Source: Verrucomicrobiales bacterium
GTDB lineage: Bacteria; Verrucomicrobiota; Verrucomicrobiia; Limisphaerales; CAIMTB01
Length of the DNA stretch: 64,000 nt
NCBI GenBank assembly: GCA_016795425.1
Contig: JAEUHG010000227.1
Coordinates: forward strand, 1-64,000
Direction: 5' to 3'
Numbering within the stretch: the stretch's first letter is position 1; each line of letters begins with the position of its first letter. A program made the translations under genes and the position numbers. This document shows positions 16,940-37,288 of this stretch, piece by piece. The notes beneath the pieces were generated by a model. It did not search any database. It was not told the origin of the DNA and worked only from the letters and a program-made list of their open reading frames with translations.

Positions 16940-17263
16940 TCAGGAGGCCACGACGAGTTCCACGTGTCGGTCGATGCGCAGGAAGAGGAGGGTGCGATGG
17001 ACGAACCGACTTTTCACCGTGACGGTGATTCCGAGCTTGCGGGTCTGGCAGGCGCGGATGATTCCGACGAGGAAGTTCACCCCGGCGGAGTCAATCATGT
17101 TCACGGCGCAGAGGTTGAGATGGACTTTTCCGACCTGGGAGTATTTGAGGGCGGTGTCGTCGAAGAGGGGGAGGATCTCGGCGCGGAGAGACTCGACCGT
17201 CGTGCTAAGAAGGTCGGTGGGAATTCCGATGGCGAGGACTTGATCGTCGATGGTGTGGTTCAT
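16940..17263 (-). CDS. STAS-domain anti-anti-sigma factor-like protein
   Basis: The 107-residue product is a single STAS domain: VEKVHLNLCAVNMIDSAGVNFLV-like strand-helix order, with the DSAGVN motif holding the expected phosphorylatable Ser. STAS proteins such as SpoIIAA and RsbV are switched by Ser phosphorylation from an HATPase-type kinase and by dephosphorylation from a PP2C phosphatase. Both activities are predicted in the gene immediately upstream, whose stop overlaps this ATG (ATGA at 17260-17263). The two genes should therefore be translationally coupled and form a compact partner switch. The final target (a sigma factor, cyclase or other protein) is not visible. Confidence 0.85.
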   Translation of the reverse strand: MNHTIDDQVLAIGIPTDLLSTTVESLRAEILPLFDDTALKYSQVGKVHLNLCAVNMIDSAGVNFLVGIIRACQTRKLGITVTVKSRFVHRTLLFLRIDRHVELVVAS

Positions 17264-18828
17264 GGCGGTTCGGGCAGGTGAAAGTCGAGGGTAAGCGAGG
17301 CGCCGTGGCGGTGGTTCTCAATCCGCGAGGCGAAATGGTGCATCATCGAGAGCCCGCGATGGGATGGCAGCAGGTCCCGCTGTGCGACATAAGCATGGCT
17401 GGCCCAATCGAATCCATGTCCTGGTCCCGGGTCATCGATCCATGCACGGAGATTCCGGGCTTTGGACTGGTATTGAAATCGAAGACTGGCCGTGCATTCG
17501 GGCCGTCCTTTGCATCCGTGCTTGAGGGCGTTGAGCATTCCTTCGCGCAGGCAAATCAGGATCTCACAGAGTCGTTCCTCGGATAGCGCTGGGATGGCGA
17601 GGGTAAGCGTGTTCCGCCATTCGTTCTGGATCGCGTCGATCTCTCGCCAACGATCGCCGGCGTATTGGTCGGCCAGAATGGGAAAGCCCTCGTCGAAACT
17701 GGCGGAACCAAGAGCCACGGCAACGACAAGGATGTCATCGATCGCATCCCCGATGCTGGCGCGCCGGGCTGTTGATTCATCACGTCGGAGCAGCGTGTAG
17801 GCGAGACCCCACGGACTGACCGCCAACTGGCGGGCGTGGTCCTCGAGTCCGTCCGTCCACAAGACCAGCCACCCCGATTCCGGGACATCGACCGTCTTGC
17901 GTTCGGGTAGAGCCTCGGCGAACCAGCCCATGGGATGTCCGCCGCCGACCCCGCAGGGGCGGATTTCTCCCGAGGGCAGGACGACCTGGGCATCGGGAAA
18001 GCCGGCGCTGAACAGGGTGGCTTGACCGCGGCCCGGCGGAAGAACCGCCGCGCAAAGAGACAGAGAAGTGGGCATCTCGAGTGTCACCGCCGAGCGATCA
18101 CCCCAGTCCGACCAAAGACAATGATTGAAGAACGACAGCACCTCGTCGATAGGGGTGCTCTTCTCCAACATGCCGCGGACGATCCCCTGGAAGTAGGCCG
18201 AAACGAATGCTGCCTTCAGGTCGTGACCCGATACGTCGGCGGCAAGCACCAGCAGGGCGCCGTCCGGACACGGATGGACATTCAGGAAATCGCCACCCGC
18301 CGTCCGCTTTGGGTGATGTGAGAAATGGACTTTGCCTGGGATGGCCAGGTTGCGGCCACCGAGGAGATGGCGCTGCAGGTGGCCGACGGCTGCGGCGTCT
18401 GCCTCGTTACGGGCGAGTTCACGTCGATGCCGGGTGGTCTCCACCGCCTTGTTGACGGCCTGTTCCAAGTCTTCCCGGCGGTAGGGCTTGTCGAGGTAGT
18501 TGTTGGCACCATTGCGCAGCGCGGCGGCGACGAGGTCCTTTTCCCCTGCGCCGGCGATGACAATGGACGCGAGACAGGGATCCTTGGATCGCAACCAGAT
18601 CAGAAGATCCAGGCCCGACTTCTCCGGCATTTGGTAGTCGGTGATGACGCAGTCGAAGTAGCCCGGCGGACGCATCTCGATGATCTGCTGGGCGTGCATC
18701 ACGCTGGTCGCGAGCTCGGGGCGAAAGCCGGAGCGGGAAAGGTATTGGTCGAGGACGAGCCGCGCCACCCCGTCATCATCGACACCGAGGATGTTGCCGG
18801 GACTGGTATGGGTTTCGACGACCCTCAT
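17260..18828 (-). CDS. Receiver-PP2C(SpoIIE)-HATPase fusion, RsbU/RsbW-like partner-switch regulator
   Basis: The 522-residue protein has three domains. An N-terminal receiver spans about 10-125, with the acidic DDD at 17-19, phospho-acceptor Asp64 and Lys114. The conserved Ser/Thr position is Ala92 (IVIAGAG), which is unusual. A SpoIIE/PP2C phosphatase lies near 165-385 (AGGDFLNV, ADVSGHDLKAAF, WTDGLEDHA). A C-terminal HATPase_c domain of the RsbW/SpoIIAB type lies near 400-515 (REGMLNALKHG, IDDPGPGHGFDW, HRGLSMM). It would both phosphorylate and dephosphorylate the STAS partner encoded just downstream. The upstream HNOBA-REC-Hpt gene ends four bases before it, so phosphotransfer from that protein to this receiver is plausible. 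Confidence 0.88.
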   Translation of the reverse strand: MRVVETHTSPGNILGVDDDGVARLVLDQYLSRSGFRPELATSVMHAQQIIEMRPPGYFDCVITDYQMPEKSGLDLLIWLRSKDPCLASIVIAGAGEKDLVAAALRNGANNYLDKPYRREDLEQAVNKAVETTRHRRELARNEADAAAVGHLQRHLLGGRNLAIPGKVHFSHHPKRTAGGDFLNVHPCPDGALLVLAADVSGHDLKAAFVSAYFQGIVRGMLEKSTPIDEVLSFFNHCLWSDWGDRSAVTLEMPTSLSLCAAVLPPGRGQATLFSAGFPDAQVVLPSGEIRPCGVGGGHPMGWFAEALPERKTVDVPESGWLVLWTDGLEDHARQLAVSPWGLAYTLLRRDESTARRASIGDAIDDILVVAVALGSASFDEGFPILADQYAGDRWREIDAIQNEWRNTLTLAIPALSEERLCEILICLREGMLNALKHGCKGRPECTASLRFQYQSKARNLRAWIDDPGPGHGFDWASHAYVAQRDLLPSHRGLSMMHHFASRIENHRHGASLTLDFHLPEPP

Positions 18829-18832
18829 CGGA

Positions 18833-20113
18833 TCAGGCGAGGGACCTCGCGCTCGTCTCGGCGTCGACCGCCGAATGCAGAAGTTCGGTGAGTTCCCTGT
18901 TGAGTTGATCCAGGCCAGACTTGAGTTCTTCCCACCAGACAGGAACTTGATCCCATCGGTCCGCCTTGCCCTGCCGCTCCAACCCGCGGGCCGCCGCTTC
19001 GAGATTGGGAACTTCGAGGTAACTCAGGGATCCCTTCAGCCGATGGGCATGAAACGCCAGATCGGAGGCGTGGCGGCGGCGAATGGCTCCGTCGATGGCG
19101 GCGAGAATCTGCGGTGTCTGTTGCAGAAAGACCTCGGCAACTGTCGCGACCAGGGCCGGGTCGCCCTGAATGAGGCGGACATGAGGCGCGGATTCGGACG
19201 CCACGACGCCGGGTGAGGCAGGGAGCGGCGACGGGTGTGGAAGCTGGGTGGCGGCGTTGGCCTCCGGGTGTTCGGGCGATGATTCCACCGTCCGGCCGGC
19301 GTGGATGGGGGCGGCGTTTTGTCCCAGGCTTTCCAGGGTGGCGATCAATTGATCGACGCGCAGCGGTTTGGACAGATAGGCATCCATGCCGGCATGCAGA
19401 CATCGCTCGCGATCCTCCGAGAACGCGTGAGCCGTGACGGCAACAATGGGGACATGTCCGCCGCGGGTCTTTTCCAATTCGCGTATCGCCCGAGTGGCAT
19501 CGATGCCCGACACCTCGGGCATCTGAATGTCCATCAATACGAAATCCACCGCGCTGTCTTGGATCGCCTGAATGGCGGCCTTTCCTCCGTCGATGGGAAT
19601 CGCCTCGTAGTGACGGAGTCGCAGGAGTTCGGTGGCCAGCAATCGGTTGACCGGGTGATCGTCCACCACGAGCACGCGGGGTCGCCGACGGCCGGTCGGG
19701 GGCGGCGTGGGCGCGGCGGACGCAGGTTGAGTTTGCCGTTGGTGATGATGCCTGGCGAGGTCGCTGAGCACGACCGTGGTTGGGATCTCTGGCGTTCCCA
19801 GGAAGGCAATCGCGGTCGGATCCGGCAACGTGATCAGGGGTCCGGAGAGGCGCAGAACCGGGATCGAATGTCGAATCTCGAGGGTAATCGACCGGAGCTG
19901 AGCCAGGGCCTGGAAGGTGAGCGCAGCTTTGGTGGTGTTCGTCAGGAGGAAGGACTCGGAAAGTGCGGATCGGGTCTGGATCGACGGATACAGCTTGGTC
20001 AGGAGGGGGCCCACGGCGCGCAGTCGGTCATCGTTTCCGATGACCACATGCAGCGGGAACGCGACGCGCAGGAGTTCCTGCAGCGCCCCCGAATCCAGGT
20101 CGATTCCAGCCAT
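18833..20113 (-). CDS. HNOBA-like sensor / receiver / Hpt phosphotransfer protein
   Basis: The 426-residue protein begins with a segment (about 10-120) that reads like an HNOBA domain: FPLHVVIGNDDRLRAVGPLL, a central LEIRHSIPVLRLSG stretch and AIAFLGTPEI...VVLSDLARH. After a Pro-rich linker, a receiver spans about 145-262, with Asp151/Asp152, Asp195 and Lys249. A C-terminal Hpt domain has the HRLKGS motif at His357. HNOBA domains usually accompany H-NOX sensors, cyclases or kinases; here no kinase domain is fused. The start at 20113 was chosen because the HNOBA segment starts there; a further 45 upstream residues look like non-coding translation. The gene diverges from the MCP-like gene at 20305, sharing a 191-base promoter region. 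Confidence 0.72.
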   Translation of the reverse strand: MAGIDLDSGALQELLRVAFPLHVVIGNDDRLRAVGPLLTKLYPSIQTRSALSESFLLTNTTKAALTFQALAQLRSITLEIRHSIPVLRLSGPLITLPDPTAIAFLGTPEIPTTVVLSDLARHHHQRQTQPASAAPTPPPTGRRRPRVLVVDDHPVNRLLATELLRLRHYEAIPIDGGKAAIQAIQDSAVDFVLMDIQMPEVSGIDATRAIRELEKTRGGHVPIVAVTAHAFSEDRERCLHAGMDAYLSKPLRVDQLIATLESLGQNAAPIHAGRTVESSPEHPEANAATQLPHPSPLPASPGVVASESAPHVRLIQGDPALVATVAEVFLQQTPQILAAIDGAIRRRHASDLAFHAHRLKGSLSYLEVPNLEAAARGLERQGKADRWDQVPVWWEELKSGLDQLNRELTELLHSAVDAETSARSLA

Positions 20114-20304
20114 GCGGATCGCTTTCGCCCCCAAGTGGTATAAACCCGCACCGGGGGGTGGCGAATGCCGGTCGTGGGTTGGCGAACCTTGCGGGTGAAA
20201 GTTCGGAAAGCGGCGGACCGCGGCACTCGGACGGAATATCGGCGACAACGATCCCGCAGTTAAGCGGTTGGGCGGTTAAGGAGACGCTCAAGGGGACCCC
20301 AAGA

Positions 20305-22500
20305 ATGACCGATGAACACCCGATGTCCGATGCCGAAAGGAACGGATTAGCCCCCGAGTTCGTCCTCGGTGCTCTGGGTCGGTTTTCTCCGAAGGCCGCT
20401 TGTCGGCAATTGCGGGGATGGTTCCGGCTTCGTGTGCTGGACCGGCCGTTAAGCCGGTTGCGTCAACCTATGGGGCAATTGCTCTCAGAGGGTCGGCGGG
20501 TGGAGTCGACGACACGGGAGTTGGAGACCCGATTTCTATCGATTGGTGCCGACATCGAGACGATGGCCAGCCTGAGTGGCGACCTGGTGTCGCGCAGTGA
20601 ACGTCTATTGGCCCTGGCGACCGGGCAATCGAGCGGCGAGGATGTCCTCTCGTCGGCGATCGAGGAACTGCGGCGTCCAGTCGAGTTTCTGGAAGATTCT
20701 CGGTTGCGTTGGGCGGAAATCGTCTCGCGCCTGCGGGAGCACCTGCGCCTGGTCGGCGAGGTTCGACGGATGGAAACCTGCCTGGAGCGCGCGGTAGCGC
20801 CGTTACGGTTTATCCAGACATTCTTTCGCATTGAATCCGCGATCCTTCCGGCGGAAGTCCAGCATGTCTTCAGCTCCCTGACCCAGGACATTGGCGAACT
20901 CCATCACCGGGTGGTGGACCTCTTCTCGGAGCAGTTCCTGAGCTTGCGGAAGGCGGAAGTCACCGTGGAGGCGCTGGTAAAGCGCCTGGAGGTGCAACTT
21001 CGGCTCCACGAAAGCCTGGTAAAGGAGAAGAAGAAGCTGATCGAAGACGCCATGGTGAACCTCAAGCAGATGCTTGAGGAGAACCGGGCTGTGGATATCC
21101 GTCTCACGGGTACCACCCGGGACATCGATCGCGATGTGGGCCGTATTGTCACGAGCCTCCAATTCCAGGATATCACCCGCCAGAAACTGGAGCATGTGAC
21201 CGAAGCGATTGGGCGGATGACATCCGATTTCAGAGCCTTGGAAGGGCGCGGATCTGCGGAGTCGCGCGGGCCAGCCAGGGAAGGGTTGGGGCGTCTCAAC
21301 GAAACGAGCCGGATTCAGGTGGCGCAATTGGACGCCGTGTGCGGCGACCTGGCAAAGGCGGAGACTGAAATCACTGAGGCGGTCCACGGCATTCATCAAA
21401 GAGCCGGCACCCTCGACGAGGAATGCATCACGCTGCGGAATTTCAGGAGCATTTCCGTGTCACAGGATGGTGTGGTGCAAGTGGTTCTGAACACCCTCGA
21501 GGAAGTGCGCGCCTTGACCGCCACTATGCTGACGGTCCACACCGACACCTACGAAACCATCAAACCGCTGGAAAGCCTGACGTCGAACCTGACCGACGTG
21601 ATGCGCAATTTGTCGAACAACATCCGATTGATTGCGCTGAATGCCCAAATCCAGGCAACCCAGGTGGGTGAAGGCACCGGACTCGAAGTGTTGTCGCAAC
21701 GGACCTGCACCATTTCCGATGAAGCCAACGCGGTGAACGAGCGCGCGGCGGTGGAATTGGACCGTTTGACCGCCGGCTTTGAGCGCATGGTGCATGAGAG
21801 CCGCGAGCTTCGAGAGCTGATCGATGGAGAACAGCGCTGGCTTTCGGATCAGGGCTCCCGGTTGGAGGCGCGTCTCCACGAGTACCGTGATTCGACGCTG
21901 GAGGTTTTCCGCGAGGTGGATGAACTGGCGGCCAAATTGCGCGACCATACCCAGACCTGCCAGGAACACCTCGATTTCGCCGCCCGCGCAGCGGAGGAGC
22001 TTCAGCCGTTGCGCGATCTTCTGCAGACGGTCGCCACGGCATCCGAATCCTGGAAGCCACAACGAACGGCGGGACGGGACCGGGAGTCTTCCGATTCCAC
22101 CTATACGATGCAGGCGGAGCGAGAAGTGCACCGCGCGGTCCTCACGGGTGCGGCCGCGCCGGTGGCTGTTGCCGTGACGGACGCTTCCGCAGGGAGTCTG
22201 GACATGTTCGAGGATTTTGGTGTGGCTCAGCCCGGCAACCCGACGGTCGAGCCGTCACCGCCGTCCCTGGATGCCGCGAAGACCGCATCACACGAGACCG
22301 GAACTTCGGAGCCTTCGGTGGTGCCGATACGCGTGGGACCTGCGAGTCCACCCAGCACGTCCCTTGCGGCTTCCGAGCCACTGACGGCGCTGGCGCGCGG
22401 TATGGCGCCGGTGGAGTCCGTACCTTCGCCCCGGCCGGGCGTCGAATCTCCCCCACCTGCTCCCGCTGGAAACTTGGGCGACAATGTTGAGTTGTTCTGA
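20305..22500 (+). CDS. Cytoplasmic MCP-like coiled-coil protein with CheZ-type D-x-x-x-Q motif
   Basis: The 731-residue protein is soluble and mostly helical. Residues 285-293 read LQFQDITRQ. This matches the CheZ active-site pattern FQDLTGQ, whose Asp143 and Gln147 in E. coli catalyse CheY-P hydrolysis; here they would be Asp289 and Gln293. Residues about 436-470 (NNIRLIALNAQIQATQVGEG) resemble a degenerate MCP signalling tip. A Pro/Ala-rich tail (about 620-722) ends in GDNVELF. CheZ likewise ends in a flexible linker plus a short CheY-binding peptide. The gene lies 156 bases before cheY. The start at 20305 follows AAGGGGA; an upstream ATG-type start at 20158 would intrude on the divergent promoter region. 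Phosphatase activity is inference from motif and context. Confidence 0.7.
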   Translation: MTDEHPMSDAERNGLAPEFVLGALGRFSPKAACRQLRGWFRLRVLDRPLSRLRQPMGQLLSEGRRVESTTRELETRFLSIGADIETMASLSGDLVSRSERLLALATGQSSGEDVLSSAIEELRRPVEFLEDSRLRWAEIVSRLREHLRLVGEVRRMETCLERAVAPLRFIQTFFRIESAILPAEVQHVFSSLTQDIGELHHRVVDLFSEQFLSLRKAEVTVEALVKRLEVQLRLHESLVKEKKKLIEDAMVNLKQMLEENRAVDIRLTGTTRDIDRDVGRIVTSLQFQDITRQKLEHVTEAIGRMTSDFRALEGRGSAESRGPAREGLGRLNETSRIQVAQLDAVCGDLAKAETEITEAVHGIHQRAGTLDEECITLRNFRSISVSQDGVVQVVLNTLEEVRALTATMLTVHTDTYETIKPLESLTSNLTDVMRNLSNNIRLIALNAQIQATQVGEGTGLEVLSQRTCTISDEANAVNERAAVELDRLTAGFERMVHESRELRELIDGEQRWLSDQGSRLEARLHEYRDSTLEVFREVDELAAKLRDHTQTCQEHLDFAARAAEELQPLRDLLQTVATASESWKPQRTAGRDRESSDSTYTMQAEREVHRAVLTGAAAPVAVAVTDASAGSLDMFEDFGVAQPGNPTVEPSPPSLDAAKTASHETGTSEPSVVPIRVGPASPPSTSLAASEPLTALARGMAPVESVPSPRPGVESPPPAPAGNLGDNVELF

Positions 22501-22656: not shown

Positions 22657-23025
22657 ATGAGTAAGACCATCATGACGGTCGATGATGCCACCACGATGCG
22701 TCGCATGATTGCGTTCGCCCTGAAGCCCACCGGGCACGCGGTGGTGGAGGCGCCGGATGGCCGGGCCGCCCTGGATCTGGCTCGGAGCCGGCAGGTCGAT
22801 CTGGTGATCACGGATGTCAACATGCCCAACATGGGAGGGCTGGAATTGACCAAGGAGCTGCGGGCGATCCCGTCCTACGCCCGGGTGCCGATCATTCTGC
22901 TGACCACCGAATCCGATCCGGAGATGAAGAACAAGGGACGTGCCGCGGGCGCGACCGGCTGGATCGTGAAACCCTTCAATCCGGAGCAGCTCGTTGCGGT
23001 CGTTTCGCGCGTGCTTCCCAACTGA
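22657..23025 (+). CDS. cheY: CheY-type single-domain response regulator
   Basis: The 122-residue protein is a stand-alone receiver with all catalytic residues: Asp9/Asp10, phospho-acceptor Asp53 (ITDVNMPNMGG), Thr83/Thr84 and Lys105 (VKPF). It has no output domain, as expected for a CheY that diffuses from CheA to a motor or partner. It is followed 13 bases later by cheA, and preceded by the gene for the CheZ-motif protein, which may be its phosphatase. A second CheY-like protein is encoded at 34943-35311, so the system has two candidate phosphate acceptors. Confidence 0.9.
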   Translation: MSKTIMTVDDATTMRRMIAFALKPTGHAVVEAPDGRAALDLARSRQVDLVITDVNMPNMGGLELTKELRAIPSYARVPIILLTTESDPEMKNKGRAAGATGWIVKPFNPEQLVAVVSRVLPN

Positions 23026-23038
23026 CCCGCTCGCGACT

Positions 23039-25399
23039 GTGAAAAGTTCCCTGCAACAGCAGCTCATCGCCGATTTTCTCATTGAGAGTTTTGAGGGGCT
23101 TGACCAGTTCGACCAGGACCTGCTCGGCCTTGAACAAGGTTCGGCGGACGGCGAGACGCTCAATCGTATCTTTCGCGCCATCCATAGCATCAAAGGCACC
23201 GCCGGCTGTCTCGGTATCCAGCGCATGGAGAAAGTCGCGCACGTGGGCGAAAACCTGTTGAGCCTGATGCGGGAGGGGCGGTTAAAGGCCAACAAGGACA
23301 TCATTTCCACGCTGCTCAAGTACGCCGACGCGCTTCGGGAGATGCTGAGGAACCTGGAGCAGTCCGGCACCGAAGGCACCACGGATCACTCCGCGCTGAT
23401 CGCGCGTCTCCAGGAACTTCAGGGCGAACCATCGGTCGCCTCCACGCCTTCACCCGCGCCATCTTCCGCACCGGCACCGGCACCGGCAGCGGCAGCGATA
23501 GCGACGCCGGAAACGGTGGCCCCTGAAGCCGTCACCCCGCCCGTTTCCACCGAACCCAATCCCCCGCCCACTTCCGCCGCACCAACCGCGGAGGAGGATG
23601 CGGCGTGGGGCTTCTTCTCCGATGCTCCGGCCGCACCGGCCCCAAGCGCAGCGGCTGCCGTCGAATCGGCACCGATCTCCGCCACACCGCCAACGTCCTC
23701 CGCTCCGACCGTCGAACGCGAGACCACTTCCCGCGGGTCCATCGCAGACAGTGCCATCCGCGTCGATGTCGGGCATCTCGACAAACTCATGAATTTGGTG
23801 GGCGAGTTGGTTCTGGCCAGGAACCAGATCGTCCAGCACATCCGGAGTTCCCGGGACTCGGCCATGCTCCCGGTGGCCCAGCGGCTGAATCTCATCACCA
23901 CCGAGCTGCAGGAAGGGGTGATGAAGACCCGCATGCAGCCGATCGACAATGTTTGGGCGAAGTTTCCGCGCATCGTCCGTGATGTCTCCCAAGAGTTGGG
24001 CAAGGTGGTCCGTCTGGAAATGGAAGGGCGGAACACCGAGCTCGACCGAACGATCATCGAGGCGATCAAGGATCCACTGACCCACATCCTGCGCAATTCC
24101 ATCGATCATGGTATCGAGTCACCCGCCAAGCGCCGGGCTGCGGGGAAGTCGGAGGCTGGCTTATTGTACCTGCGCGCCTTCCACGAGGGCGGACAGGTCA
24201 ATATCGAAATCATGGATGATGGCGCCGGGGTGAACACGGCGCGGGTGAAGGAGAAGGCACTGCAGAAGGGCCTGGTTCCGCCGGAACAGATCGCCCGCAT
24301 GAGCGATCGCGAGGCGTGCAACCTCATCTTCCTTCCAGGCCTGTCGACCGCCGAGAAGATATCCAACGTCTCGGGCCGCGGTGTCGGCATGGACGTGGTG
24401 AAGACCAATATCGAGAAGATCGGCGGATCGGTGGATGTCCAGAGCGAGGCTGGGCAGGGGACCACCATCAAGATCAAGATTCCGCTGACTTTGGCCATCA
24501 TTCCGGCGCTCACGGTACGCAGCGGCGGGGAGCGTTTCGCGATTCCTCAGGTCAATCTGCTGGAGTTGCTGCGCGTCGAGAGTGGTTCCGCCGAAAACAG
24601 CATCGAGAACATCTTCGACGCACCGGTCTACCGGTTGCGTGGAAAGCTGCTGCCCCTGGTTTTCCTGAACCGGGTCCTGTCGTTGGAACCGCCGGATCCG
24701 TCGACCCTCACGTCGCTCAACATCGTCGTGTTGCAGGCGGACGGGCGTCTTTTCGGGCTCGTCGTTGATTCGGTGAGCGACACCGAGGAAATCGTGGTCA
24801 AACCGCTCGGCAAACAGTTGAGCGGCCTCACTTGCTTCGCTGGAGCGACCATCATGGGCGACGGCCAGGTGGCCTTGATTCTCGATGTGATGGGATTGGC
24901 TCAGCATGCCCAGGTGGCTGCGGTCGAACGAACCGCCGTCTCGGCCAAGACCGAGGAGGCGCAGACCGACGAACAAACCCGACGGCAGACGCTGCTTCTT
25001 TTCAGCGTCGGGGACCGACCGCGCATGGCTATGACGCTGTCCGAGGCGGGGCGGTTGGAGGAAATTCCTCGCGCCAAGGTGGAGCGGGCGGGGCGCCGCG
25101 AGGTGGTCCAATACCGCGGCCAGATCCTGCCGCTGATTCGCGTGGCTCAACATCTGCCGGGTGGAGGCGAGGACCCGATCGCCGACCCCATGCACGTGGT
25201 GGTGTACTCCGAGCAGGGCCGCAGCGTCGGCCTGGTGGTGTCCAACATCGAGGATATCGTGGAAGACGCCGTTCGCGTGGAGCATCGGATTTCGCGCGAT
25301 GGCATCGTAGGTTCGGCGGTGGTGCATGGCCGGGTCACCGATTTGTTGGACGTGAAAGGCATCATTCGCGAAGCGGAACCGGCGTTCTTCGAATCCTAA
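23039..25399 (+). CDS. cheA: Chemotaxis histidine kinase CheA with two CheW-like domains
   Basis: The 786-residue kinase has an N-terminal Hpt/P1 domain with phospho-acceptor His49 (AIHSIKGTAG). An Ala/Pro-rich linker of about 110 residues follows, with no recognisable P2 domain. The P3 dimerisation helices contain IRVDVGHLDKLMNLVGELV. The P4 ATPase contains LRNSIDHGIESPAKR, IMDDGAGV and GRGVGMDVVK. Two CheW-like domains close the protein instead of one, the second beginning around residue 660. The GTG at 23039 is chosen as start because the family N-terminus aligns there; an ATG at 22994 would overlap cheY by 32 bases. CheA autophosphorylates in receptor arrays and passes phosphate to CheY and CheB. 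Confidence 0.92.
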   Translation: MKSSLQQQLIADFLIESFEGLDQFDQDLLGLEQGSADGETLNRIFRAIHSIKGTAGCLGIQRMEKVAHVGENLLSLMREGRLKANKDIISTLLKYADALREMLRNLEQSGTEGTTDHSALIARLQELQGEPSVASTPSPAPSSAPAPAPAAAAIATPETVAPEAVTPPVSTEPNPPPTSAAPTAEEDAAWGFFSDAPAAPAPSAAAAVESAPISATPPTSSAPTVERETTSRGSIADSAIRVDVGHLDKLMNLVGELVLARNQIVQHIRSSRDSAMLPVAQRLNLITTELQEGVMKTRMQPIDNVWAKFPRIVRDVSQELGKVVRLEMEGRNTELDRTIIEAIKDPLTHILRNSIDHGIESPAKRRAAGKSEAGLLYLRAFHEGGQVNIEIMDDGAGVNTARVKEKALQKGLVPPEQIARMSDREACNLIFLPGLSTAEKISNVSGRGVGMDVVKTNIEKIGGSVDVQSEAGQGTTIKIKIPLTLAIIPALTVRSGGERFAIPQVNLLELLRVESGSAENSIENIFDAPVYRLRGKLLPLVFLNRVLSLEPPDPSTLTSLNIVVLQADGRLFGLVVDSVSDTEEIVVKPLGKQLSGLTCFAGATIMGDGQVALILDVMGLAQHAQVAAVERTAVSAKTEEAQTDEQTRRQTLLLFSVGDRPRMAMTLSEAGRLEEIPRAKVERAGRREVVQYRGQILPLIRVAQHLPGGGEDPIADPMHVVVYSEQGRSVGLVVSNIEDIVEDAVRVEHRISRDGIVGSAVVHGRVTDLLDVKGIIREAEPAFFES

Positions 25400-25403
25400 T
25401 TCC

Positions 25404-25853
25404 ATGAGTACTCCGCGGCAGTTCTGTACATTTTTCGTGGATGGCTTGTTTTTCGGCATCGACGTCCTGCAGGTCCAGGAGGTCCTGCGCTATCAACCGA
25501 TGACCAAGGTGCCGATGGCGCCGACCATGGTTCGGGGCCTGATCAATTTGCGCGGGCAGATCGTAACGGCGATCGATCTCCGGCATCGGCTCGGCTTGTC
25601 GTCGCGCAGCGCCGACAGCCTGCCCATGAACATTGTGGTCCGCTCCGAAGAGGGTGCGGTCAGCCTGTTGGCGGATCAGATCGGCGACGTGATCGAGATC
25701 GACGACGAGACCTTCGAGCGTCCGCCCGACACCTTGAAAGGGGCGGCGAGGGAATTAGTGACAGGGGTCCACAAATTGAAGGACCGATTGCTGTTGATCC
25801 TCGATACCCACCGAGCCATCGGCGTGGCGCAGGGTGTCGCTGTTGAGGCATGA
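25404..25853 (+). CDS. cheW: Chemotaxis coupling protein CheW
   Basis: The 149-residue protein is a single CheW domain. It shows the standard pattern FFVDGLFFGIDVLQVQEVLR, then TMVRGLINLRGQIVTAIDLRHRLG, and a closing VHKLKDRLLLILD strand. It links receptors to CheA in chemosensory arrays. It lies four bases after cheA and its stop codon overlaps the start of the next gene (ATGA at 25850-25853), so a small membrane protein is translationally coupled to it. Two further CheW-like domains are at the end of CheA. Confidence 0.92.
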   Translation: MSTPRQFCTFFVDGLFFGIDVLQVQEVLRYQPMTKVPMAPTMVRGLINLRGQIVTAIDLRHRLGLSSRSADSLPMNIVVRSEEGAVSLLADQIGDVIEIDDETFERPPDTLKGAARELVTGVHKLKDRLLLILDTHRAIGVAQGVAVEA

Positions 25854-26212: not shown

Positions 26213-26457
26213 GTGCCACACCACTAATCCCTTTTGGCCAGGTGCCGATAGCAAGAGGTGGTTGCCCGTGAACCCGACTGGACCTTCCAACCTGTGCAGG
26301 AGCGACACCGACCGCGACGGTGCCAAACGTCGGCGGCGTTCTCGTTGGGAGTTCAGGACCCGGCTGTTTCTGGTTTCAGAATACTCCTCGTGGACTCCCC
26401 CGCGTCGGGTTACGCCGCGGATCAGTCCGGACCCAGGCCGCCCAATTTAAAAACACC

Positions 26458-29157
26458 GTGAACGCGACTCCCTCCTTCTCCACCCAGCAGAACCCTCTCG
26501 CCTCCGGCCGCAACGGTGCGCGTCGTGGCAGGGGAACCGCGACACCCAATCATGGTCCGATGACGCGACGGACCTCCGCCCCGACGTCGGAGGTGACGCC
26601 GCCACAGGCTTCCGTGCCGTCGTCCGAGCCGGTCGGTGAGTTGGGGACGAAGCGCCGCGGCTTATCCTTCGGTCTCATGACCAAGCTGGTGGGGCCAAGC
26701 GCCACGATTATTCTTCTGGTTGCCGCGGCCATCTTCGTCGCGGTCTACGAAAAGAAGGACCACATCCAAGGCGAGCGAGCTTCGGGTTTGGAGAACGTCG
26801 CGGCCAACATCCAGGACAAGGTCGATCGCTGTCTGTTCGAGCGCTACGGCGATGTGCAGGCTTTCGGTCTCAATTCCGAGGTGCGCCGACCCCTCGGCCA
26901 GTTGACGGCGGCCGAGCAGGCCTCCTTGACCGCCACCATCGACGCCTACATGAAGGCGTATGGTTGTTACGCTTTAAGTCTGGTCGTGGACACTTCCGGC
27001 AAGGTGGTCGCGGTGAACTCGGTGGATTCCAACGGCCAGTCGTTGCCGGCCACTTCGCGCCTCGTGGGCAGGGATCTTTCGGCGACGGACTGGTTCCAGC
27101 AGGTGAAAGCGGAGCGATACACCACTGATGGCAAGCCGGGGTCGTTGTCCGGAACCGTGGTGACGGCGCCCCAGCGCACTCCATTGGTGGACGAGGCGTA
27201 TGGCGCCAAGCGCCCGAGCTGGGAGATGGGTTTCAGTGCGCCGATTCGGTCCGTCGACGGACAGATCGTGGGCTATTGGTACAACGCGTTTTCCTCGTCC
27301 ATGGTGGAACAGATCGTCGAGACGCAGTACGAGGCGTTGAAACGTCAGGACATGGCGAGCGCCGAGTTCACCTTGATCGATGACAAGGGCAACGTCCTGG
27401 TGGATGTCGATCCTTCGACCACCGGGTCAGCGGCCAGTCGCACCGAGGATGTGCTCAAAGTGAATCTCGCCGACAACGGTGTCGCGTTGGCCAAGACGGC
27501 TCTGGCGCCCAACGCCGCGCCGCTGGGCAGCGGGCCGACTGCCGTCGGGACGAAAACCGGCACCTCAGCCAAGCAGGAAGGCATGGGAGCCTATGCCCGC
27601 AGCGTGCCGGTGATGGGATTTTCGGGGTCCAACCTCACCACCTTGGTCCGCATTAGCGGCTATGAGTTCATGGATGTGATTTATGACCTGCTGTGGGCGG
27701 CGGGTGTCGTGGCCTTGGTTGGCGTGGTGATTGGTGTCGTCGGCGTCTGGGCCTCGGTGCGACCGATCGTCGCCCGGGTGAACAAGATCCGGGATGCAGT
27801 CGGTGGCCTGGCTCGCGGCGACATCGCCGACAACCTGCAGGTGCGGGGCGCCGACGAGGTGGCCCAGGCGGCCGAAGCGTTGTCGCAGACCAAGGCGGAA
27901 CTCCGTGAGGTGTTCGGCAAGGAGCAGTTGGATTGGCAGCAGGTGGCCAGCCAACAGCGCGAAGCTTCGCGCATGCGCAATGTCGTTGAGAATTCGCCGG
28001 TCAACATCATGGTCGCCGACACCGACCTGCGAATCACGTATTTGAACGCGGCGTCTCAATCGACGCTCGGCAAGCTCGAACGGCTCCTGCCCGTCAAGGC
28101 GAACCAGATCATCGGGCAAACGATCGACATCTTCCACAAGGACCCCGCGCATCAGCGGCGAATTCTGGCGGACCCGCGCAATCTTCCGCACCGCGCCGTC
28201 TTCAAGCTCGGAGATGAGACCATCGATCTCACCGCCGCGGCGGTTTGCGACGACGAGGGGCGGTATCTTGGACCCATGGTGTCCTGGGAAGTCGTGACCC
28301 AACGCGTCACCCTGGAAGAGCGCGACAAGGCCAACGCCCTGAGTTTGAAACAGACCCTCGATGGCGTGAACCAGAACGCTCAGACACTGGCGTCGTCCTC
28401 GGAGGAACTCTCCGCCGTTGCCCAGCAGATGAGTTCGAACTCCGAGGAGACGACGGCCCAGGCCAATGTCGCCGCCGCAGCCGCGGAGGAGGTCAGCAAG
28501 AACGTCGCCACGGTCGCCACCAGCGCCGAGGAGATGAGCGCCAGCACCAAGGAAATCGCCAAGAACGCCTCGGACGCCGCCCGGGTTGCCACTCAGGCTG
28601 TTCGTGTGGCGGACGAGACCAATCGCACGGTGTCGAAGCTCGGCGAAAGCAGCATCGAGATTGGCAAGGTCATCAAGGTGATCACCTCGATCGCCCAGCA
28701 GACCAACCTGCTCGCTCTCAATGCCACCATCGAGGCTGCCCGCGCCGGCGAGGCTGGCAAGGGATTCGCCGTCGTTGCCAACGAGGTCAAGGAACTCGCC
28801 AAACAAACCGCGTCCGCCACCGAGGAGATCTCCCAGAAGATCGAGGCCATCCAGACGGACACCAAGGGGGCCGTCACAGCCATCAGCCAAATCGGCACGA
28901 TCATCAACCAGATCAACGACATTCAGAGCACCATCGCCAGCGCGGTCGAGGAACAGACAGCCACCACCAACGAGATCGCGCGCAATGCCTCCGAGGCCGC
29001 CCGCGGCAGCACCGAGATCGCCAAGAACGTGGCCAGTGTCTCGCAGGCCGCCCGCAGCACCTCGGAAGGCGCTGCCAATTCGCTCATGGCGTCGTCGGAG
29101 CTCGCCCGGCTGGCTGCCGACCTCAAACGCATGGTGGATATGACGAACCTGCGCTGA
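26458..29157 (+). CDS. Transmembrane methyl-accepting chemotaxis protein with PAS domain
   Basis: The roughly 900-residue receptor has a first membrane helix ([19 protein letters not shown]). A periplasmic cache-like sensor of about 300 residues follows, then a second helix ([20 protein letters not shown]) and a HAMP domain. A cytoplasmic PAS domain ([20 protein letters not shown]) and an MCP signalling domain complete it. The signalling tip reads [20 protein letters not shown]. It detects an external ligand and signals through CheW to CheA. The start is uncertain: GTG at 26458 was chosen, ATG at 26560 and an upstream ATG at 26320 are alternatives, and none has a clear ribosome site. It lies 245 bases after the four-TM gene, so it may have its own promoter. 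Confidence 0.88.
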
Positions 29158-34942: not shown

Positions 34943-35311
34943 ATGAAAGTGCTGATCATCGATGATTCGCGGACGATGCGCCGCCTCCTGGCTTCCTACC
35001 TGGCTCCACTCGCGGCCCAAACGTACGAAGCTGGCAATGGACGTGAAGCCCTGGATGTTCTCGAAAAGGAAGAGGCTGTGGATCTGGCGCTGGTGGATTG
35101 GGATATGCCGGTCATGAACGGCATCGATTTTGTCCGTACGGTGCGCGGGGATGTCCGGCGTTCGGCCATGAAACTCCTGATGGTGACCGCGCACAACAAC
35201 ATGGAATCGGTGACGGAAGCGATTACGGCGGGTGCGGACGATTTTCTGATGAAGCCCCTTACCGAGGAAATGGTGATGGACAAGCTGCGCATGATGGGAG
35301 TTGCCGCGTAG
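34943..35311 (+). CDS. CheY-type single-domain response regulator (second copy)
   Basis: The 122-residue receiver has Asp7/Asp8 (IIDDSRTM), phospho-acceptor Asp52 (LVDWDMPVMNG), Thr82 and Lys104 (LMKPL), so it should be functional. Start 34943 was chosen because the fold begins exactly there; an upstream in-frame ATG at 34796 would add 49 residues of low-complexity translation. It lies between the hybrid kinase and cheB. It could accept phosphate from either CheA or the hybrid kinase, giving a point of cross-talk. Confidence 0.9.
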   Translation: MKVLIIDDSRTMRRLLASYLAPLAAQTYEAGNGREALDVLEKEEAVDLALVDWDMPVMNGIDFVRTVRGDVRRSAMKLLMVTAHNNMESVTEAITAGADDFLMKPLTEEMVMDKLRMMGVAA

Positions 35312-35340
35312 CGCCTGTCTTCTTTTGCCCCTGGCCTGCC

Positions 35341-36450
35341 ATGCCAAAAATTCGCGTCCTGGTGGTCGATGATGCGGTGGTGATGCGGAAGATCATCTCC
35401 GATGTGATCAGCCGCGATCCGGAATTGGAGGTCGCCGCGGTCGCCGCCAACGGCAAGATCGCCCTCCAGCGGATCCCTCAAGTCAATCCCGACGTCGTTA
35501 CCCTGGATGTGGAGATGCCCGAAATGGATGGCGTCACCACGGTGCGCGAGATTCGAAAAGTCTATCCCAAGCTTCCGGTCGTCATGTTCTCGACGCTCAC
35601 CCAGAGGGGAGCGGAGGTCACTCTCGACGCGCTCAGTGCGGGTGCCAATGACTATGTCACCAAGCCGGCGAATGTCGGCAGCGTCACCGAGAGCATGAAC
35701 CGGCTGGCCACCGAATTGCTTCCCCGGCTCAAGTCGTTCTTCCACCCGAAGTCCGGCCCCCCGCCGCTGGCTCCGGGACCCCGGGTGTCGTCACCGGTGT
35801 CGGTTCCGGTTCCGACCCTGCCGCTCACCGTTCGCCCGGCGCGCGGACCGCGGGGACCGATCGAGGTGGTGTGTGTCGGAACGTCGACCGGCGGACCGAA
35901 TGCTTTGGCGGATGTGTTTGGAGCGATTCGGAAGCCGCTGCCGGTCCCCATGGTGATCGTCCAGCACATGCCGCCGGTGTTCACCAAGATCCTGGCGGAA
36001 CGCCTGGCGAAGATCGCGGGACTCCCGGTGGTGGAAGGGAGCGATGGTGTCTGCGTCGAGCCCGGCGGTGTGTATCTCGCTCCGGGAGGCAAGCACATGG
36101 AGGTGCGCAAGGACGGGAACCAGATCCGTCTTCGGTTGCATGAGGGGACACCCGAGAATTCCTGCCGACCCGCGGTCGATGTCTTGTTTCGCAGCGTGGC
36201 CGAGGTTTATGGCGCGTCGACGCTGGCGGTGGTGATGACGGGGATGGGGCAGGATGGACTTCGCGGGTGCGAGGTGATTCGGGAACGCGGGGGGCAGGTC
36301 ATCGCGCAAGACCAGGCTACCAGCGTGGTTTGGGGCATGCCGGGATACGTCGTGCAGCACGGGCTGGCGGACGCGGTCCTGCCGCTGCTTCAGATTGGCC
36401 CGGATTTGGTGCGTCGAGTTCAGGAGAAACGTTGCGCCGTGCACGCCTAA
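35341..36450 (+). CDS. cheB: Chemotaxis protein-glutamate methylesterase CheB
   Basis: The 369-residue protein has an N-terminal receiver (Asp10/Asp11, phospho-acceptor Asp56) and a Pro-rich linker (about 140-170). The C-terminal methylesterase domain carries the catalytic triad expected for CheB: Ser182 in GTSTGG, His209 in VQHMPP and Asp305 in MTGMGQDG. It demethylates or deamidates receptor glutamates when phosphorylated by CheA, giving adaptation. It lies 29 bases after the second cheY and eight bases before cheR. The start at 35341 matches the receiver start. Confidence 0.95.
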   Translation: MPKIRVLVVDDAVVMRKIISDVISRDPELEVAAVAANGKIALQRIPQVNPDVVTLDVEMPEMDGVTTVREIRKVYPKLPVVMFSTLTQRGAEVTLDALSAGANDYVTKPANVGSVTESMNRLATELLPRLKSFFHPKSGPPPLAPGPRVSSPVSVPVPTLPLTVRPARGPRGPIEVVCVGTSTGGPNALADVFGAIRKPLPVPMVIVQHMPPVFTKILAERLAKIAGLPVVEGSDGVCVEPGGVYLAPGGKHMEVRKDGNQIRLRLHEGTPENSCRPAVDVLFRSVAEVYGASTLAVVMTGMGQDGLRGCEVIRERGGQVIAQDQATSVVWGMPGYVVQHGLADAVLPLLQIGPDLVRRVQEKRCAVHA

Positions 36451-36457
36451 TCAACCC

Positions 36458-37288
36458 ATGGCACTCAAGCTCGAGGACTTTCAGTTCATCTCGGACATCG
36501 CCCGCCAGAACGCGGCGATCGTGATCGAGACGGGGAAGGAGTATCTCGTTGAGACGCGGTTGGAACCGTTGGCGCGACAGGAGGGCTTCGGTTCGATCGA
36601 GGCGTTGATCACCCAGGTACGGCTGCAGAAGGGCTTCGGGCCGCTGCACGCCAAGATCGTCGATGCGCTGACAACGAATGAGACGTTCTTTTTCCGTGAT
36701 TTTCATCCTTTCGAGGCGATGCGGTTGAAGGTGTTGCCCGGCCTCATCTCAACGCGGGCCGCCACCAAGCGACTCACCATCTGGTCCGCTGCGTGTTCCT
36801 CCGGACAGGAGCCCTACAGTCTGGCCATGATGATCCGCGAGCACTTCCCACAGCTGCGGGATTGGTCGATCAAGATCCTGGCGACCGATCTGTCGCCAAC
36901 CATCCTGGGACAAGCCCGAACGGGCCGGTACACCCAACTGCAGGTGAACCGCGGCTTGCCCGCCATTTACCTGGTGAAGTATTTCGCCCAGAAGGACGGC
37001 GCGTGGCTGATCAAGGACGACATCAAGTCCATGATTGAGTTTCGCGAGATGAACCTGGCGCAACCCTGGCCGATGCTGCCGGCTTTCGACGTCGTGTTTC
37101 TTCGGAATGTGATGATCTACTTCGATGTCGAGACCAAGAAATCGATTCTCCGCCGGCTCCGGGCGTGCACCTTGCCGCACAGCCATCTCTTTCTTGGCAC
37201 GGCGGAGACGACCATGAACCTGGATACCGGGTGGAAGCCGGCAACCCTCGGCTCCGCAGTTGCGTATCAGCATGCCATGGCCGCTTGA
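36458..37288 (+). CDS. cheR: Chemotaxis receptor methyltransferase CheR
   Basis: The 276-residue protein matches CheR: an N-terminal helical domain, then TTNETFFFRDFHPFE, the SAM-binding loop SAACSSGQEPYSLAM, ATDLSPTILGQARTGRY, and VFLRNVMIYFD. It methylates receptor glutamates from S-adenosylmethionine and opposes CheB. The start at 36458 follows the cheB stop by seven bases; the frame extends upstream inside cheB but that part reads as shadow. Presence of both cheR and cheB shows that the system has methylation-based adaptation. Confidence 0.95.
   Translation: MALKLEDFQFISDIARQNAAIVIETGKEYLVETRLEPLARQEGFGSIEALITQVRLQKGFGPLHAKIVDALTTNETFFFRDFHPFEAMRLKVLPGLISTRAATKRLTIWSAACSSGQEPYSLAMMIREHFPQLRDWSIKILATDLSPTILGQARTGRYTQLQVNRGLPAIYLVKYFAQKDGAWLIKDDIKSMIEFREMNLAQPWPMLPAFDVVFLRNVMIYFDVETKKSILRRLRACTLPHSHLFLGTAETTMNLDTGWKPATLGSAVAYQHAMAA

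Follow-up and report, generated by a model that had tools for sequence, protein, structure and literature searches.

Asp143 and Gln147 are the established catalytic pair of CheZ, and the active-site Asp contacts a conserved Lys of CheY. The DxxxQ motif of CheZ adjoins an AxxF(Y)Q sequence, and together they form a conserved CheZ signature (PMC7750401). A DxxxQ motif is also found in CheT of Sinorhizobium meliloti, which acts on CheY-P and assembles with CheR into a complex (PMC12654446, citing Agbekudzi et al. 2024). CheT is described there as lacking significant homology in sequence to the known proteins of chemotaxis, and its predicted structure as highly CheZ-like. CheT sets a precedent for DxxxQ phosphatases other than CheZ. 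Furthermore, CheA-CheC/CheX fusions are present in Leptospirae (PMC10542144). Comparative surveys count CheZ, CheC, and CheX, and many systems are consequently deemed phosphatase-less. A Geobacter survey states that the mechanism at work in that group must be independent of CheZ (PMC2577667).

We analyzed P0001, a protein of 731 aa encoded in a 64,000-nt stretch of DNA (the window) from a Verrucomicrobiales bacterium (GCA_016795425.1, contig JAEUHG010000227.1). P0001 and its homologues resemble CheZ (PF04344) in the AxxF(Y)Q-DxxxQ sequence on a long helix, the coiled-coil hairpins, the gene adjoining cheY, and the flexible linker followed by a C-terminal motif. They differ from CheZ in that the site lies on a far longer MCP hairpin and the C-terminal motif is another one; P0001 moreover reads as the product of a tandem duplication, each chain bearing a single site, and it matches no CheZ model. 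The family shares with MCPs (PF00015) the hairpin coiled coil and a signalling tip, which is canonical in the short relatives, whereas P0001 has no visible sensor domain, a degenerate tip, and a DxxxQ motif 15 heptads from the tip. P0001 also has no pentapeptide of the CheR type, in contrast to many MCPs encoded in the related loci, whose C-termini are FEEF/FERY-type sequences. CheT and the family have the DxxxQ phosphatase motif in common, but CheT is not described with an MCP tip in PMC12654446. The Leptospirae fusions likewise place a phosphatase function inside a core array protein, but with the fold and chemistry of CheC/CheX and with CheA as the host protein (PMC10542144).

Results

Domain organization and predicted structure of P0001

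The gene for P0001, a tandem MCP/CheZ-type hybrid in family alignments A1 and A5, is an intact ORF at 20305..22500 on the + strand. This ORF, the motif LQFQDITRQ at residues 285–293, and the cheY gene downstream had been reported in the initial annotation, and all three were confirmed. Two modules were delimited by hhalign profile comparison. Module 1 (residues 60–325; 20482..21279, +) keeps the CheZ-type site, LQFQDITRQ with Asp289 and Gln293 (21157..21183, +), which was assigned by conservation among homologues. Module 2 (residues 326 to about 620–625; 21280..22164, +) keeps the tip and has lost DxxxQ; by column equivalence, its degenerate counterpart of the site is LDFAARAAEEL (residues 556–566; 21970..22002, +), with Ala560 and Glu564 in the Asp and Gln columns. 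A YTMxxERxxH motif conserved among homologues follows at residues 600–609 (22102..22131, +). Tyr600, Thr601, Met602, and His609 were kept in 17, 15, 14, and 16, respectively, of the 18 sequences in the motif-free homologue alignment, and the first three were each present in at least 90% of alignment A5. The remainder consists of a disordered Pro/Ala-rich linker (residues 610–723; 22132..22473, +) and the C-terminal docking-type motif LGDNVELF (residues 724–731; 22474..22497, +), so that the protein ends in NLGDNVELF. A second D...Q sequence, DGVVQ in SISVSQDGVVQVV, lies in the inter-module region; it was rejected as a candidate site, being kept only in close relatives and not in a CheZ-like context. 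A plasmid search gave no match.

P0001 scored 12.9 bits (E = 0.1) against Pfam MCPsignal (PF00015), below the cut-off of 34.6 bits, and gave no match to Pfam CheZ. Pfam also found no CheC (PF04509), CheX (PF13690), sensor, or HAMP domain in it. The HMM search with CheZ and MCP profiles that had been proposed as a check thus reached no Pfam cut-off for P0001 itself; most of the short relatives described below match both models. The best PDB sequence matches of P0001 were MCP tips (E = 0.002). In profile comparisons, its C-half matched MCPs with E = 6e-10, and MCP structures ranked top in a sequence-profile search (E ~1e-20), which bears out the degenerate MCP tip previously suggested at about residues 436–470.

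The AlphaFold2 model of P0001 had an overall pLDDT of 79, mostly >85 at residues 50–580, and a pTM of 0.61. The body was helical, and the tail was predicted to be disordered, with pLDDT <50 from residue 621 on. Helix breaks were predicted at residues 179–182 and 455–458, which together with the profile matches bear out the signalling-tip hairpin. The second break belongs to the divergent tip of module 2 (IRLIALNAQIQATQVGEGTGLEVLSQRT, residues 436–470; 21610..21714, +). The first lies in a more degenerate tip in module 1, which the initial annotation had missed (residues 165–205, containing FIQTFFRIESAILPAEVQHVFSSLTQDIGEL; 20797..20919, +) and which aligns to the canonical tip of the short relatives. 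The tip consensus of module 2, ALNAQVQAAQVG, has a one-residue deletion and a change of EAAR to QATQ, and conserved charges are lost. A Foldseek search with the P0001 model returned nothing at E ≤0.001; MCPs were the top chemotaxis entries, and CheZ was not among the 50 matches listed. At the level of the model, this result is that of an MCP-like coiled coil and nothing more informative. The model of a short relative matched MCPs, one with a TM score of 0.94 over the tip, and CheZ was not among the matches listed. Insertion into the receptor array, which had been proposed for P0001, is plausible for the short relatives because their tip is canonical; for P0001 it is doubtful, given that the tip is one residue shorter and, with EAAR changed to QATQ, has lost conserved charges.

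Conservation of the CheZ-type site

Whole-protein searches among relatives and the phylum, in which the LQFQDITRQ motif was not used, gave 18 aligned sequences including P0001. Scanning GTDB species genomes yielded 79 family loci. One scan pattern contained LQFQDITRQ, so conservation across the 79 loci is partly circular, and we therefore relied on the motif-free set of 18 sequences. Gln286, Asp289, and Gln293 were kept in all 18, and conservation of the Asp/Gln pair in orthologues, which had been set as a check, was thereby observed. In alignment A5, the DxxxQ pair was present in 47/47 sequences, and Gln286 (47/47) and His297 (45/47) were near-invariant. The residues between the invariant positions vary, as in QDITRQ, GDIVRQ, HDSMSQ, EDILTQ, and QDSTCQ. 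Judged by the conservation in the 18 sequences, the motif is beyond chance. The AxxF(Y)Q element was found as A/S/G at position 284 (43/47), F/Y at 287 (37/47), and Q at 288 (42/47); P0001 has the version SLQFQ, with Ser replacing Ala.

We compared the family with a CheZ profile built from ten CheZ sequences, using 16 ordinary MCPs of the same genome as the comparison set. The profile matched the short members with E = 2e-7 and module 1 with E = 1.6e-7, against E = 0.39 for the ordinary MCPs and 0.011 for module 2. When the nine motif residues were masked, the match weakened to E = 0.002–0.003. The similarity to CheZ is thus specific but lies mostly in the active-site stretch. As judged from these sequences, the link to CheZ could reflect convergence as well as common descent.

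Duplication of the short unit

The short members of the family have about 400 aa and contain a canonical MCP tip followed by LQFQDITRQ. The spacing from the tip to the Asp was 105–107 residues in the 47 members measured, and the 105 residues in the short relatives correspond to 15 heptads along the returning helix. All 28 short relatives matched Pfam MCPsignal, with scores of up to 132 bits against PF00015, and 19 of them also matched Pfam CheZ (E ≤0.01). One short relative, L120, exceeded both curated cut-offs (MCPsignal, 73.7 bits; CheZ, 32.6 bits against a cut-off of 30.7), and it was the one relative to pass that for CheZ. In the alignment, several short members, including L086 and L120, have a hydrophobic N-terminal stretch, which suggests that some of them are membrane-anchored without a recognised sensor domain.

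In hhalign comparisons, module 1 matched the short family over 250 columns (E = 1.4e-29), module 2 matched it over 288 columns (E = 2.2e-26), and the two modules matched each other (E = 7.6e-12). These profile matches indicate that the long members, including P0001, are tandem duplicates of the short unit. In the tree, the N-halves (46), C-halves (42), and short units (28) formed separate clades with support values of 0.996, 0.994, and 0.848, respectively, as expected of one old duplication. The DxxxQ motif was kept in 47/47 copies of module 1 and 0/47 copies of module 2 in the long members, whereas module 2 retains the ALNA core of the tip, which module 1 has lost. On this comparison the loss is complementary: module 1 has the site without the tip, and module 2 has the tip without the site.

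Distribution and gene neighbourhood

The loci of the GTDB scan belong to Verrucomicrobiota, deltaproteobacteria (Geobacter/Desulfuromonadales and others), Nitrospira, spirochaetes and Brevinematales, Chitinispirillaceae, Acidobacteriaceae, and Alpha- and Betaproteobacteria. One genome (G037) carries at least four family paralogues on separate contigs (L007, L008, L009, and L004/L006). No description of a fused MCP-CheZ protein, of the motif, or of the tail was found in the largely open-licence literature searched. The family is apparently a multi-phylum and undescribed one.

In the window, the P0001 gene is followed on the + strand by cheY, the presumed substrate or partner (22657..23025; PF00072, E = 1.8e-28), cheA (22994..25399; Hpt, H-kinase_dim, HATPase_c, and CheW domains, with the true start perhaps further in), and cheW (25404..25853; PF01584, E = 9.6e-32). 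An MCP gene with PAS and canonical signalling domains follows at 26320..29157 (+; PF00015, E = 8e-35), its dCache and HAMP matches being sub-threshold. By sequence reading and similarity to the corresponding ORFs of related loci, cheB (35098-36450, +) and cheR (36395-37288, +) lie further downstream. On the other side are a receiver-Hpt protein (18833-20248), a divergent receiver-SpoIIE-HATPase gene (17260-18828, −), and an adjoining STAS gene (16940-17263); the latter two form a partner-switching module alongside the che operon. A receiver-SpoIIE-HATPase gene also lies divergently upstream at L044:7031-8764 and L050:6795-8456 (Pfam), and similar ORFs are upstream in L045-L048 and L052 (ORF similarity).

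The family gene usually precedes cheY-cheA. The next gene was a CheY ORF in 68 of the 76 loci having enough downstream sequence, with a median open-frame gap of 14 bases, and a cheY ORF lay directly upstream instead in three loci (L113, L114, and L121). The proposal of a CheZ-type site on an MCP-like scaffold next to cheY is therefore supported, with both DxxxQ and AxxF(Y)Q conserved across phyla. Among the CheYs adjoining the family gene, 66/69 had Asn59, and all 69 had both Glu89 and Trp at E. coli position 106; for the other CheY-like ORFs of the same loci, the corresponding counts were 15/29, 16/29, and 15/29. The window cheY encodes both this Trp and Asn59. These frequencies fit a distinct CheY type that travels with the family, the control set of CheY-like ORFs being a mixed one.

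The initial annotation had noted the absence of cheZ, cheC, and cheX. This holds for the window, and for CheZ and CheC it holds throughout the genome, but one CheX is encoded on a different contig, at a distance of 18 kb from fliM. None of the 22 Verrucomicrobiota genomes with the family had a CheZ above the cut-off, and the weak CheZ matches in two of them were the family protein itself. These genomes commonly encode CheX, in many cases near fliM by coordinate comparison and outside the P0001-type operon. In Nitrospira, the family gene lies about 10 kb from the gene for a true CheZ, which adjoins a second che cluster, so the family protein would not be the sole phosphatase there. In several Geobacter-type genomes (G356-G362 and G377), the family was present and no FliM was detected. 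The partner CheY therefore need not control a flagellum, and the che systems of these genomes may control something else.

C-terminal tail

An ending like N(V/I)(E/T)LF was found in 64/79 family ORFs, and several members lack the motif. The same ending occurred eight times among about 6000 other ORFs, and all eight (L080, L088-L092, L100, and L115, from Nitrospira and one other locus) were CheD by profile, three of them confirmed by Pfam. Internal copies of the motif were present in 10/63 linkers against 0.02 expected; the P0001 linker contains a degenerate one, SLDMF (22195-22209, +), and the disordered C-terminal tail of L034 holds three tandem copies, GGNIELF, CDNVELF, and GDNVELF.

The Pro-rich tail ending in GDNVELF is thus present as previously described, but its reading as the linker and CheY-binding peptide of CheZ was rejected: N(V/I)(E/T)LF differs from CheZ tails, is common to CheD, and is missing from several members. 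P0001 also lacks the CheZ-type amphipathic C-terminal helix ((V/I)D-LL---GF), and its tail is predicted to be disordered. The simplest reading, a CheR pentapeptide, was also set aside: position 2 holds V/I in place of an aromatic residue, MCPs of the related loci have the aromatic form, and the linkers hold copies. The occurrence of the tail makes a docking motif common to CheD its best reading, and the shared endings suggest that the family protein and CheD have a docking partner in common.

Discussion

We infer, with a probability of about 0.7, that P0001 is a system-specific CheY-P phosphatase that uses CheZ-type chemistry on the coiled coil of a chemoreceptor. The short relatives would still show the ancestral unit, an MCP hairpin whose tip is normal and whose returning helix bears a CheZ-type DxxxQ site 15 heptads on. 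Tandem duplication of this unit would have split the functions within one chain, leaving the catalytic helix in module 1 and the tip in module 2. CheY-P would dock on module 1, where Asp289 would position it as Asp143 does in CheZ, and the side-chain amide of Gln293 would orient the water molecule that hydrolyses the phospho-Asp of the adjacent CheY. Module 2 would contribute a hairpin like that of a receptor and might pack against module 1, giving a single-chain pseudo-dimer. The flexible linker and the NVELF-type motifs would dock P0001 to a partner, in some operons one common to CheD.

The MCP-like fold would also suit a non-enzymatic, receptor-like scaffold in which the conserved helix is a non-catalytic docking site for CheY, CheA, or some other array component. 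The near-invariant Gln286 (47/47) and His297 (45/47) would fit a binding surface, and Nitrospira already has a true CheZ nearby. However, the conserved positions include exactly the CheZ pair of D-x-x-x-Q and AxxF(Y)Q (PMC7750401), and ordinary MCPs show no similarity to the CheZ profile; we consider such a scaffold unlikely. The same profile result (E = 0.39 for plain MCPs) weighs against an ordinary soluble chemoreceptor or array spacer in which LQFQDITRQ is a coincidental heptad feature. The match of 28/28 short relatives to MCPsignal agrees with an ordinary receptor, but the motif stands at a fixed spacing from the tip and, in the long members, in the module that lost the tip, which makes a coincidence highly improbable.

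A phosphatase could also serve a receiver other than CheY, namely the receiver-SpoIIE protein (17260-18828), the receiver-Hpt protein (18833-20248), or CheB. Several related Verrucomicrobiota loci do share the divergent upstream receiver-SpoIIE-HATPase gene, but this neighbour was not noted outside Verrucomicrobiota, whereas the stand-alone cheY is constant (68/76). Another receiver is accordingly a quite improbable substrate. A phosphatase acting on the adjoining CheY remains our preferred reading. A broader interpretation, which we hold tentatively and at slightly short of an even chance, is that the family is a new multi-phylum phosphatase class with the CheZ-type site inside a chemoreceptor, so that CheY-P would be made and destroyed within one array, and that the duplication in one branch splits these functions in a single-chain pseudo-dimer.

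The complementary decay of the two modules provides a clean case of functions divided within one polypeptide. Genomes related to the surveyed Geobacter carry the family gene within che clusters. If the family is active, it would fill an apparent gap in signal termination in several phyla; it would also place CheZ chemistry on a receptor scaffold and make the position of a phosphatase in arrays directly testable.
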